Counted from the stretch's first letter, positions 1 to 46,336 are shown. The stretch: DNA of 64,000 nucleotides from Chloracidobacterium sp. CP2_5A (GCA_002254845.1 NKPT01000009.1:1-64000); one strand, 5' to 3'. Numbers and translations are program-made. The notes: generated from the letters alone by a model not told the origin.

Positions 1-486
1 GAAGAGCGCCCCGTCCGCATCGCGCCTATTCTGTGCACGTCTTTCCACGCGCTTTACGCCGCGGATGAGGGCGAGCGCCGGGCGGCGCGCGCCGACTACG
101 AAGCGTTCATCCAGGCGCTTCGCGCGACGCTCGCGGACAGCCCCTGCCGCGCCGCGCTGCTTGTCGGCGGCGACTTGGCGCACGTCGGCCCCAAGTTCGG
201 CGACGCCTTTGACGCCCAAGCCAAGGCGAGCGAGCTGGAGCGCGCTGACACAGAATTGCTCGAATATGTCGCCGCCGGCGACAGCCAGGCCCTGCTCGCC
301 CACATCGCGCGCGATGCGGACGCGCGGCGCATCTGCGGATTTCCGCCGCTGATGGCGTACCTTGACGCGCTGCCGGCGTTTGGGCCAACGGAAGGGCGGG
401 CGCTGCATTACGAGCAGTGGCAGGAGCGCCCGACTCGCTCAGCCGTCACGTACGGCGTGGTTGCGACGTGGCGAAAGAAAAAATAA
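1..486 (+). CDS. MEMO family protein (AmmeMemoRadiSam system protein B), 3' part
   Basis: The reading frame is open from the first base, so the N-terminus lies outside the window; 161 residues are visible. The motif GGDLAHVGPKFGD followed about 60 residues later by CGFPPLMAYL is characteristic of the MEMO family, a dioxygenase-like fold that in bacteria often travels with an AMMECR1 protein and a radical SAM enzyme. The protein ends in a basic WRKKK tail 5 bases before the CCA end of a convergent tRNA. The AMMECR1 and radical SAM partners, if present, must lie upstream of the window; the radical SAM gene at 15650 is of another type. The family's biochemical role in bacteria is not settled, so I give no function. 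Confidence 0.82.
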   Translation, partial: EERPVRIAPILCTSFHALYAADEGERRAARADYEAFIQALRATLADSPCRAALLVGGDLAHVGPKFGDAFDAQAKASELERADTELLEYVAAGDSQALLAHIARDADARRICGFPPLMAYLDALPAFGPTEGRALHYEQWQERPTRSAVTYGVVATWRKKK

Positions 487-42820: not shown

Positions 42821-42829
42821 TGTTATGCT
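42821..42829 (+). promoter_or_regulatory. Extended -10 promoter candidate
   Basis: TGTTATGCT has the TGn-TATGCT form of an extended -10 element, 33 bases before the ATG of the five-gene cluster. No good -35 box is visible, as often with this type. Confidence 0.4.
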
Positions 42830-42861: not shown

Positions 42862-44352
42862 ATGAATCGGTTCACCACGCTTGAAGCCTTCGTTGTCGGC
42901 GTTGAAGACAGCGCTACGCTTCTGAAGCTTTATATTGAGCGGATTCGTCGAGCGCCGCACCATCCGGCGTATCACCTTGCGGTGTGCGAGCACACGGATG
43001 AGCTTCTCACAGCCACGCGCGACTTGCGCCGCGCGGCGGGCGATGTGCCGCCCGCGCTTCTCGAAGGCATCGAAGCCCTGCTAGCGCTAGCCGAAGCGGC
43101 GGCGGCGCTGGCGCTGCGCTTGTCCGGCTTCGCCCCGGAGCGACTCGTCGCCGGACTCGATGGGCTTTCGCAAGCGACCTCCTGTTTCGTGGACGTGGTT
43201 CGGTCGTTCAGCGGCGAGACGCTCGGCCCGGATGTCTCGCTGGCGGGGCATATCACGCAGCGGCTTCAGACCCTGCTGTCCGCCGAAGCGCCATCCGCGA
43301 CGAGCGCCACGACCACCCAACACGCGCGCCGCATCACTACCGAGGTCACATTCGATGGCCACGAGGACCCGTTTGACGACCTTGCCGTGGATACGGACGA
43401 TGACTTTCTCGATGACGTGATTGGAAGCCTGGAAGGGGCGTTTGACGCGGCAGTTCACTCCGCCACAGCCGAACTCCCCGCGCCCGAAGGGTTCTGGCAG
43501 GATAGAGCGACCGAGTTCAGCATTCCGCCCGAAGTGCGCCAGCTTTTCACGGAAATTGCCGCCGGCTACACGCAGCCCATCAAGGACTTCATCGCGGAGC
43601 TACGCAAAGGCGGCTTTGCGCGCGACTGGCTCGTGGCCTGTCGCCCGGCGGTGGCGAGCCTGCGCCGGGCGTCCGAGTCGATTGATTTCACCGACCTGAG
43701 CAGCCGGCTGGAACGACTCGAATCCGCTCTGCTTCAAGATCACAACGAGAGCGACCGTCGCCGCTATGGGCGACACTGGAAGCTGCGCGTTCTGAGCGCC
43801 TACGCCGATCTGGAGACGTATCTTCCCAACGCGTTCCTGATACCGCCGGCGGCCACGTCGTCGGAAAGCATCATTGTGAACACGCTGCTCAAGCAGGTTG
43901 CGGGCGTCGGACAGCGGACGATCCAAAAGCTTTTCGCGGCCGGCATGTCGCGCATTGAAAGCTACGCGACTGGACTGCCCAGCGACATCGCCTTGGCGGC
44001 CGGCATCAAGCGAGCGCTCGCCGAGCGCATCTGCGAGCGGGTTCAGGCCTATCTCCGCGCCCGCGAGACAACGGACGCTGACCTTCAAGCGCGCCTGATC
44101 GCTCTCGTTGAAGAGCTGAAGCAACGCCAGTTTGAGTTCAAGCGGGCGACGCTTGAAGAGTGGTACCGCCGCTCGGACTCCACTGAAAAGAAGCGCTGCC
44201 GCAAGGCGCGCCAGGAAGTCATGTGGCGCATCAACATCGCGCTGGTTGAACTCGATCAGCTCGACACGCTACACGAAATCAGGAATGCGATTTTTGATAA
44301 GCGCATTTCACGGCTGGAAGAGCTAACGAAAGCGTTTCCCAAGCAGCGATGA
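42862..44352 (+). CDS. Unknown helical protein with HhH-like segment, head of a five-gene cluster
   Basis: 496 residues, soluble, nearly all alpha-helical. An Ala/Leu-rich N-terminal half (about 20-130), an acidic low-complexity hinge near 170-205 (DGHEDPFDDLAVDTDDDFLDD), then a helical domain. Near 340-398 the pattern QVAGVGQRTIQKLFAAGM...LAAGIKRALAERICERV resembles two helix-hairpin-helix motifs (GVG and AGI turns), which bind DNA or serve as interaction modules. The end is a charged helix (RSDSTEKKRCRKARQEVMW). A TTG/GTG region to 42820 is open, but the ATG at 42862 sits properly after the extended -10. The stop overlaps the next start by 4 bases. No family recognised. Confidence 0.7.
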   Translation: MNRFTTLEAFVVGVEDSATLLKLYIERIRRAPHHPAYHLAVCEHTDELLTATRDLRRAAGDVPPALLEGIEALLALAEAAAALALRLSGFAPERLVAGLDGLSQATSCFVDVVRSFSGETLGPDVSLAGHITQRLQTLLSAEAPSATSATTTQHARRITTEVTFDGHEDPFDDLAVDTDDDFLDDVIGSLEGAFDAAVHSATAELPAPEGFWQDRATEFSIPPEVRQLFTEIAAGYTQPIKDFIAELRKGGFARDWLVACRPAVASLRRASESIDFTDLSSRLERLESALLQDHNESDRRRYGRHWKLRVLSAYADLETYLPNAFLIPPAATSSESIIVNTLLKQVAGVGQRTIQKLFAAGMSRIESYATGLPSDIALAAGIKRALAERICERVQAYLRARETTDADLQARLIALVEELKQRQFEFKRATLEEWYRRSDSTEKKRCRKARQEVMWRINIALVELDQLDTLHEIRNAIFDKRISRLEELTKAFPKQR

Positions 44353-45020
44353 GCCTCACTCGCCGCCAAACCATCCTGTTTGTTGGGTCTGACGCGGAAA
44401 TAGCGCAGCTAATTGAAAAGACGCTTTCCGTCGCCGGTTACCAGGTCGAGGTCGCGCCCAACCCCGAAGCGGCGTGCGCGCGCAGCGATCTGTCGCCGAC
44501 GCTCGTCATTGTGGATACGGCCCCAGGCGTGGGCGAGCTGGCCGCCGCGCGCCTCATGCGCGAGCGCTGGATCACAACGCCCATCATCGCTTTGACGCGC
44601 CTGCCAGATGAGGTTCTCTCGCGCGCGATGGAGCGCCTTCGACTTTCGTCGCTCGTTAAGCCGGTCACGCCGGCCCTCCTGCTGGCCACCGTCGCCGATG
44701 AGATTGACTGGGAGCAAAATCAGGGCGCGCGCGTCACCTCGCCGCTGGAGTCGCTCGACATCAGTGACGATCTCGTTTTTTTTCTCGGCGACCGGCGGCT
44801 CGCGCCCCCGCTCAACGCGATCTACCGGCGGACGGACGAGTTGGAGGCGGCGCTGGGAAACGCTGGGCTGTCGCCATCCAATATGGCGCTCTTTGAGTTG
44901 TTTGATGGCCAGAGCACCCTCGCCGACATCATCGACAACCTGCCGCACATCGAGCCGAAAATTTTGCTTCTGGCAAGCTACCTCGCGCGGGTCGGATGGC
45001 TGACTCAAGTTACAGACTAG
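44349..45020 (+). CDS. Receiver-like protein with winged-helix-like C-terminal domain
   Basis: 223 residues. Residues 7-120 follow the response-regulator receiver fold: phospho-acceptor position D56 (VIVDTAPG), T83 and K104 (LVKPVTP) are kept. The acidic pair that binds Mg next to D56 is replaced (FVGSDAE: G13-S14, only D15 remains), so phosphorylation may not occur. Residues about 140-223 form a second domain with the pattern LFELFDGQSTLADIIDNLP...LLLASYLARVGWL, like PqqD/DUF4388-type winged helices found in gliding and developmental regulators. Starts inside the stop of the upstream gene (ATGA). No histidine kinase is nearby. Confidence 0.78.
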   Translation: MSLTRRQTILFVGSDAEIAQLIEKTLSVAGYQVEVAPNPEAACARSDLSPTLVIVDTAPGVGELAAARLMRERWITTPIIALTRLPDEVLSRAMERLRLSSLVKPVTPALLLATVADEIDWEQNQGARVTSPLESLDISDDLVFFLGDRRLAPPLNAIYRRTDELEAALGNAGLSPSNMALFELFDGQSTLADIIDNLPHIEPKILLLASYLARVGWLTQVTD

Positions 45021-45072
45021 CTCTCGCCGAAGGAGAGTTGGTCGCGGGCTTCTCAGCGAGTATGATGGCGAT

Positions 45073-45321
45073 ATGATTCAGAAGGTTGACGTTATTCTCT
45101 GGTCAAGGGAAGTCGAGCTGCGCGGGCTGCCGCGCGCGCTTGAAGCCGAGTATGAAGCCCGCGGGGCGTTCTGGGTGACGCGCGGGTTGCGCTTGACGCG
45201 CAGCTTGTTTGAGCTGCTTGAAATTGAGCGCCCGGAACTCGAGTTTCGGAAATACGAAGTCCCACCCCCGCCGTCCGCCGGCGAGTCGGCTTCAGGCGCT
45301 GCCGAGGAAGCTTCCGTATGA
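45073..45321 (+). CDS. Small hypothetical protein
   Basis: 82 residues. N-terminal part is a compact alpha/beta segment (KVDVILWSREVELRGLPRALE), with a helix RSLFELLEIERPELEF, and a disordered, Pro/Ser/Ala-rich tail. No Cys, no membrane helix. The stop overlaps the following TPR gene start (ATGA), so it is translated from the cluster mRNA although 52 bases separate it from the preceding gene. No family recognised; the size suits an adaptor. Confidence 0.65.
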   Translation: MIQKVDVILWSREVELRGLPRALEAEYEARGAFWVTRGLRLTRSLFELLEIERPELEFRKYEVPPPPSAGESASGAAEEASV

Positions 45322-45632
45322 CGACGCCGCGGATCGAGTCGCTGCGCAAGATGCTGGCCGCGAACCCCAAGAATGCGATGGCGCATTATGGGCTAGCGAA
45401 CGAATACTGGAAGCTTTCCGACTATGCGGCCGTCGTCCGGCACCTTACCGCTTATCTCGAAGCTAGCGACGACCAGGGCGCCGGCTACCGGCTGCTTGGA
45501 CAGGCGCATCAACAGCTAGGCGACCGCGAAGCGGCCCGCGCGGCTTGGCGACAAGGACAGCAAGCCGCCGAGCGCCATGGCCATCCGACGATGGCGGCTG
45601 AAATCGGCGAGTTGATCGCCAACCTGGAGTAG
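45318..45632 (+). CDS. TPR-repeat protein
   Basis: 104 residues, about two and a half tetratricopeptide repeats: NPKNAMAHYGLANEYWKLSDYAAVVRHL and DQGAGYRLLGQAHQQLGDREAARAAW (quoted in part: AHYGLANEYWKLSDY, GYRLLGQAHQQLGDREA). Such short TPR proteins serve as protein-binding platforms. Cytoplasmic; no signal. It overlaps the stop of the 82-residue gene by 4 bases and precedes the membrane TPR gene by 2 bases. Confidence 0.82.
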   Translation: MTTPRIESLRKMLAANPKNAMAHYGLANEYWKLSDYAAVVRHLTAYLEASDDQGAGYRLLGQAHQQLGDREAARAAWRQGQQAAERHGHPTMAAEIGELIANLE

Positions 45633-45634
45633 CG

Positions 45635-46336
45635 ATGAGCGAGCCGGCGCCCCAAGCTGAGCCGCTCGCGCGGCGCCCTCGCCCGTGGCGGCGCTGGCTT
45701 ACGCTCGGCTTGGCTTTGGCTGGCGCGGTTGGCGGCGGCTATGCGTGGCTTGCGCGATCAAGCGGCGGCGAGGCTCAGGCCGAAGCGACGCTCCAGCGCA
45801 TCGCGTCCACGGTCGGACTGGCGCTTGACGGACAGCTCGCCAACTTGCCGGCAGCCAAGCCGGCGACCGTTCACCGCGGCGACCAGTCGGCGGATCATTG
45901 GCAGCTTCAGCTCAAGGCGACCCGGCAAAGTCTCGAACAGCAGCTTCTACGCCATCCGACGGCGGATGGCCATCGCGCCCTGGGACGCTTCTACCTTGCT
46001 GAGGGGCAGCCGCTAGCGGCGTTTGCCCACTTGCAACTCGCGCTTCAGCAGTTTCCCCGCGATGCGCGGCTACGCAGCGATCTCGGGCTGGCGCTCCTGG
46101 AAGCCGCCCGCGATGCGCCGGAAGCGGCCGCGGAGGCGCTCGACGCTTTTGCCGAGGCGCTGCGCCTTGATCCGGACTTGCTGGAAGCTCGCTACAACCG
46201 CGCCCGCGCGCTGGAGGCAACGGGCCGCCGAGCTGAGGCGCTGGACGCTTGGCGCGACTACGCAACGCGCGACCCGCAATCAGCCTGGGGCGCCCTCGCC
46301 CGCGATCGCATCGCGTTTCTCGAGCGCTACCCGTAG
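45635..46336 (+). CDS. Membrane-anchored TPR protein
   Basis: 233 residues. A basic N-terminus (RRPRPWRRW) precedes one transmembrane helix (LTLGLALAGAVGGGYAWL, about 25-43), so the rest should be periplasmic. Residues about 95-230 hold three to four TPRs (DGHRALGRFYLAEGQPLAAF, LRSDLGLALLEAARDA, LEARYNRARALEATGRRAEAL). Last gene of the cluster; a hairpin at 46413-46452 follows. It may link the cytoplasmic cluster proteins to the envelope. Confidence 0.78.
   Translation: MSEPAPQAEPLARRPRPWRRWLTLGLALAGAVGGGYAWLARSSGGEAQAEATLQRIASTVGLALDGQLANLPAAKPATVHRGDQSADHWQLQLKATRQSLEQQLLRHPTADGHRALGRFYLAEGQPLAAFAHLQLALQQFPRDARLRSDLGLALLEAARDAPEAAAEALDAFAEALRLDPDLLEARYNRARALEATGRRAEALDAWRDYATRDPQSAWGALARDRIAFLERYP

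Follow-up and report, generated by a model that had tools for sequence, protein, structure and literature searches.

Here, we analyse a cluster of five genes, P1 to P5, in a 64,000-nucleotide stretch of DNA (referred to as the window) from a metagenome-assembled genome of Chloracidobacterium, a phototrophic hot-spring genus of the phylum Acidobacteriota. A previous, sequence-only reading had joined these genes, as one transcript from a single promoter, into a scaffolded, envelope-linked signalling or polarity module built of proteins without a recognisable family. The five open reading frames and their junctions, two ATGA overlaps and one gap of 2 bases (Table 1), were found as described there, and a spacing of 52 bases between P2 and P3, absent from that account, can be added. 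The dN/dS ratios were 0.03–0.29 for all five genes in 15 pairwise comparisons with three congeners. Thus, P1–P5 are five real protein-coding genes under purifying selection, and none of them is decaying. Our comparisons indicate that the first four, P1–P4, probably belong with pseudo-two-component scaffolds, in which folds of the phosphorelay type persist after loss of their catalytic residues. Literature searches returned no paper on the P1–P5 cluster.

The central protein of the cluster is P1. Its only Pfam domain is the helix-hairpin-helix domain HHH_5, discussed below, and hmmscan against Pfam gave no Hpt match. The relation to histidine phosphotransfer (HPt) domains (PF01627) came from pairwise profile comparison by hhalign with an alignment of 29 HPt domains taken from the same genomes. 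Residues 216–330 of P1 matched this alignment over 102–104 columns, with a probability of 78–82 percent and a score of 33–35, while 40 column-shuffled controls did not exceed 1.9 percent and a score of 17; the N-terminal bundle, the HhH region and the coiled coil of P1 reached 2 percent or less. When, independently of this, the A1 profile was compared with the PDB, P1 domains of CheA (1tqg, 2ld6) fell weakly on the same stretch (E 0.5–0.8). The best Foldseek matches of the AlphaFold2 (AF2) model of P1 (pLDDT 73) also include CheA P1 domains, and the search returned 3kyi/3kyj, in which the P1 domain of CheA3 was solved with CheY6 (TM-score 0.78 on the target, E above 0.001). The likeness to HPt domains lies in the profile and probably in the fold. 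The column of the phosphorylated histidine, however, holds alanine in the window and histidine in none of the 26 family members, the LKG motif is missing, and the bundle is embedded in an HhH/coiled-coil protein. Given the profile match together with the loss of the histidine throughout the family, P1 is most likely a pseudo-HPt protein. Hpt domains that lack the histidine made up 0.9 percent of those in a published survey (PMC12632262). An internal duplication as the source of the two helical bundles of P1 was rejected, as no profile similarity was detected between them.

The second protein, P2, had been read as a receiver deprived of its acidic pair, and this description holds. It matches the receiver family PF00072 with an E-value of 1.3e-5 (25.7 bits, under the Pfam cut-off of 30.2), and the profile of its family reaches PDB receivers at 1e-9. 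The acidic pair DD is replaced by G13 and S14, D56, T83 and K104 are kept, and R84 and S101 occupy positions T+1 and K-3, respectively. All nine aligned orthologues have lost DD, while D56 and K104 are invariant. P2 fits the published definition of a pseudo-receiver, i.e., a receiver match devoid of any one of five residues (DD, D, T, K; PMC12632262).

The origin of P2 can be seen in the sister genera, where its orthologues (genomes G009 and G007) are 542–544 residues long and consist of a PATAN-type N-terminal domain, the pseudo-receiver, the helical domain present in P2 and a small-GTPase-like C-terminal domain. DUF4388 (PATAN) was recognised in paralogues of the long P2. The C-terminal domain has no P-loop lysine, matches one GTPase of the same genus with an hhalign probability of 70 percent and has Arf proteins as its top, weak PDB matches (E 0.045 and above); it is a probable degenerate relative of small GTPases. 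The long orthologues thus share the N-terminal domain, the receiver and the common helical domain with the PATAN-receiver proteins of Acidobacteriota, whereas P2 of Chloracidobacterium has lost both end domains and kept the middle alone. The statement that none of the proteins has a recognisable family was therefore too strong in view of the HPt-derived bundle of P1 and of the descent of P2, as a remnant, from a PATAN-receiver-pseudoGTPase protein. A wider Blastocatellia family of PATAN/receiver proteins was also seen, in which the receiver looks intact and the C-terminal domain is pseudo-GTPase-like, without the P-loop lysine (L114:6093-7826, L115:5880-7550, L111:4362-6206 and L113:3064-4905).

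P3 is a small alpha/beta protein (bb-a-b-a-b, AF2 pLDDT 82) with many invariant residues. It has no match in Pfam, NCBIfam or PADLOC, and attempts to identify it gave no significant relative by sequence and no significant PDB fold. It was found in 9 of 39 genomes, all of one family; two further matches (E ~0.08–0.09, with an internal stop) were taken as noise. P4, correctly described before as a soluble TPR protein (about 2.5 repeats, 2–3), is the most constrained of the five (dN/dS 0.03–0.09). Of 30 relatives, 24 have a member of its family, in most cases without linkage to P1. In genomes devoid of P1 its neighbours gave no clear lead to function, as it adjoins genes for acyl-CoA dehydrogenase and of the E1 type in part of them and unrelated genes in the others. 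P5 is, as had been stated, a TPR protein with a single transmembrane helix (~22–40, N-terminal, followed by the repeats). Its full-length relatives among 13 genomes are confined to Chloracidobacterium, and in one member of the genus (G005) it lies 1.65 Mb from the cluster, with an Mpl/MurC-type gene next to it and genes of the mraW/fts type in the vicinity (names assigned by eye from the sequence). In that genome short tandem repeats (FTGRNAR repeats in one frame) lie right 3' of P4 at L053:7000-7190, which is perhaps a rearrangement breakpoint.

The order P1-P2-P3-P4 was kept in all seven Chloracidobacterium genomes. It is also intact in G009, of another genus in the same family, where DinB-like, MoxR-type AAA and VWA genes follow, and in a third genus (G007) the four genes occupy two contig ends in a manner consistent with G009. 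The cluster order is thus not a matter of chance. In G017 (another family of the same class) P4 lies directly 3' of P1, and P2 and P3 are missing; in G011 (another family of the same order) P1 follows an AtuA-like gene, with no adjacent P2–P4. P1-family members occur in 13 of 297 Acidobacteriota genomes, as single genes in distant families, and their tree splits into groups A (which includes the P1–P4 cluster), B, C and D. The spread is nested, with P1 the widest, then P1 with P4, then P2/P3 and finally P5. Since P5 is separable while the order of P1–P4 is kept, the conserved unit consists of four genes and not of the five proposed earlier: P5 is restricted to the genus and unlinked in G005, the P4 family is unlinked in most of the class and P1 homologues stand alone elsewhere. 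The sequence-only reading had named homologues with unrelated neighbours as the finding that would speak against it; such homologues exist for P1, P4 and P5, whereas the P1–P4 order has been maintained. In one of the Chloracidobacterium genomes (G004) an IscB-type gene (RRXRR and HNH; Pfam 3e-69 and 1e-12) lies between P3 and P4 at L060:8915-10255, and both flanking genes are intact.

As to transcription, a candidate extended -10 element, TGTTATGCT, precedes P1. Its TG and the -10 positions T1, A2 and T6 are invariant in an alignment of six Chloracidobacterium genomes, in which the surrounding spacer is otherwise poorly conserved, and no other copy of the 12-mer that contains it occurs in the window at one mismatch or less. 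The sigma-70 scan found no promoter upstream of P1, TGTTATGCT being unlisted because it has no -35 match. The scan gave one 9/12 site, in the P2–P3 gap, and this candidate for a second promoter was rejected because it is not conserved. As the upstream element is conserved and the site in the gap is not, a single promoter upstream of P1, as claimed before, is plausible. No PADLOC model was matched by any of P1–P5, and a defence system was thus rejected. Upstream in the window, after a thiolase gene, lies a gene for an AtuA ferredoxin-like protein (PF23544; 42397-42735); a small gene of this type keeps its place upstream of P1 in four genera.

Table 1. Genes, candidate promoter element and protein regions of the P1–P5 cluster (nucleotide positions in the window; residues numbered within each protein).
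Feature	Position	Strand	Size, junction or basis
Candidate extended -10 TGTTATGCT (TG-T-TATGCT)	42821-42829	+	33 bases 5' of P1 start
P1	42862-44352	+	496 aa
P2	44349-45020	+	223 aa; ATGA overlap with P1
P3	45073-45321	+	82 aa
P4	45318-45632	+	104 aa; ATGA overlap with P3
P5	45635-46336	+	233 aa; 2-base gap after P4
P1, N-terminal five-helix bundle	residues 3-140		AF2 model
P1, disordered linker with invariant DPFD motif	residues 142-220		AF2 model
P1, pseudo-HPt bundle (most likely)	residues ~216-330 (AF2 second bundle 223-325)		hhalign and AF2
P1, HhH_5 of RadA N-domain type	residues ~334-400		Pfam, PDB profile search, AF2
P1, long C-terminal coiled helices	residues 405-490		AF2 model
P2, pseudo-receiver	residues 6-120		Receiver profile
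P2, C-terminal helical domain	residues 125-223		Common to PATAN-receiver proteins

HPt domains and receivers are natural docking partners in phosphorelays. P1 and P2 are adjacent, co-conserved genes with these two folds, each short of a residue needed for the chemistry and each under purifying selection. Most simply, this would mean that their interface was retained to serve assembly. Our tentative proposal, which we hold with somewhat less than even confidence, is that P1–P4 form a small, cytoplasmic, non-catalytic scaffold made from HPt and receiver parts with TPR adaptors. P2 would dock on the pseudo-HPt bundle of P1 as a receiver does on HPt, without phosphotransfer. The HhH domain and the coiled C-terminus of P1 may serve its oligomerisation or anchoring, P4 (with P3) may bring in client proteins, and P5 would be an optional membrane partner. 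The envelope link claimed before hangs on P5, the loosest member of the cluster, and has been dropped.

Such a scaffold would work in a manner similar to FrzS and SgmX of Myxococcus xanthus, a direct precedent in that SgmX, a TPR protein, is recruited at the pole by the pseudo-receiver of FrzS (PMC11580455; reviewed in PMC12632262). The likeness (a pseudo-receiver protein with a TPR protein, and the coiled-coil and scaffold logic) is one of analogy, homology not being claimed, and the architecture of a FrzS-type polarity system is unlike that of P1–P4. FrzS has no phospho-Asp and carries its own coiled coil, whereas P2 keeps D56, and no HPt-like partner has been described there. Moreover, FrzS/SgmX drives type IV pili. 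Isolates of Chloracidobacterium, in contrast, have been described as non-motile (PMC8245765). A role in the polarity of motility is thus unlikely and was rejected, and the polarity suggested earlier has as its basis this analogy and the bactofilin neighbour of paralogue B described below.

Several points weigh against the proposed scaffold. The HPt relation is one of remote homology, obtained in pairwise profile mode with no database E-value. In Foldseek no match of P1 fell below E 0.001 (the best was 0.034), and the output does not tell which part of P1, N-terminal bundle or core, matches CheA P1. P2 retains D, T and K, which leaves room for residual phosphorylation. P1 homologues without a P2 neighbour are found in G011, G017 and the families f23 and f39, and the true partner of P1 could be a receiver from some other protein. 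Finally, the HhH domain of P1 could be a DNA binder.

This last possibility leads to a different picture, in which P1 is mainly associated with the nucleoid, its HhH_5 of the RadA/Rad51 N-domain type binds DNA and its bundles bring P2–P4 to the chromosome, e.g., for segregation or for control of transcription. The HhH-like nature of P1 had been noted correctly: HHH_5 (PF14520) matches it at E 4e-5, although under the curated Pfam cut-off (24.4 bits vs 27), and the score rises to 36.5 bits in the distant homologue of G111. By sequence, the top PDB match of the P1 profile is RadA (E 1.7e-6), chains of which also turn up in the Foldseek search at probability 1.00, but P1 has no ATPase and a different context. 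Most members of group A retain the hairpin G-x-G (GVGQ); however, its glycines are lost in group C (IPEINEK) and halved in group B (PEVGKV), while the domain is otherwise kept, which suggests a protein-protein role. As the cluster contains no other DNA-related gene and paralogue B sits with bactofilin, we consider the DNA-associated role unlikely.

It could also be argued that P1–P4 have no joint function and are inherited neighbours, like the upstream thiolase and AtuA-like genes, with P4 a housekeeping TPR protein present by chance. The AtuA-like gene also adjoins P1 in G011, G009 and G007, the P4 family is widespread and unlinked, and P5 is separable. On the other hand, mere adjacency fits poorly with the ATGA overlaps at P1–P2 and P3–P4, with the position of P4 directly after P1 in the distant G017 despite the missing P2 and P3, with the confinement of P3 to genomes that have the cluster, and with the insertion in G004, which left the order undispersed. 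This explanation seems to us quite unlikely. A live but unusual phosphorelay, in which P2 is phosphorylated at D56 without DD or the phospho-site is H44 of the P1 N-terminal bundle, is highly improbable: D56, T83 and K104 are kept and H44 (helix 2 of the five-helix bundle) never varies among 13 rows of group A, but P2 shows the marks of a pseudo-receiver (both metal-binding acids missing, Arg at T+1, the K-3 aromatic lost; PMC12632262), and the route via H44 was rejected as there is no HPt match of the N-terminal bundle (probability 2 percent), no LKG follows H44 and the histidine is lost in group D.

The proposed assembly role of P1 can be viewed against its paralogues. Paralogue B has the same pseudo-HPt-HhH-coil core, but differs in its Pro-rich N-terminus and its cytoskeletal neighbours: it is followed by a pentapeptide-repeat gene and then by a bactofilin gene (PF04519) in many genomes from several genera of the class. 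This apparently is a conserved, undescribed cytoskeletal gene set (L038:4523-7852, also L043, L044, L048, L049, L050, L051 and L059), and the bactofilin neighbour suggests that the P1 family acts in spatial organisation. In group C the core forms the C-terminus of a conserved protein of ~1,230 residues (L037:7067-10756, L045, L061, L062). In two genomes of a distant family (G078 and G066) a lone P1 homologue lies head-to-head with nuoA/nuoB (L106 and L107), and in the window the P1–P5 cluster ends convergent against nuoB; the vicinity of nuoB is possibly an old neighbourhood. A broader idea, which we regard as rather unlikely in its full extent, is that an undescribed Acidobacteriota family of pseudo-HPt, HhH and coiled coil radiated into several complexes with different partners (P3, P4 and the PATAN/pseudo-receiver/pseudo-GTPase protein for group A, the pentapeptide protein and bactofilin for group B, and for group C the ~1,230-residue protein to which it is fused), and that dead two-component and GTPase folds would be docking parts of a cytoskeleton-linked scaffold in each.

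The earlier notion of a scaffolded signalling module thus survives in spirit, with a pseudo-receiver beside a pseudo-HPt and TPR adaptors and the P1–P4 order kept across genera, but not as a five-gene unit. Pseudo-receivers are common, and their mode of working is mostly unknown, while few HPt domains lack the histidine. In the sister genera a third probable dead switch, the pseudo-GTPase, is fused to P2. P1–P4 provide a short list of proteins for a direct test of the idea of a retained interface. If the proposal is true, the cluster would be a clean example from nature in which a phosphorelay interface outlived its chemistry and was retained for assembly.

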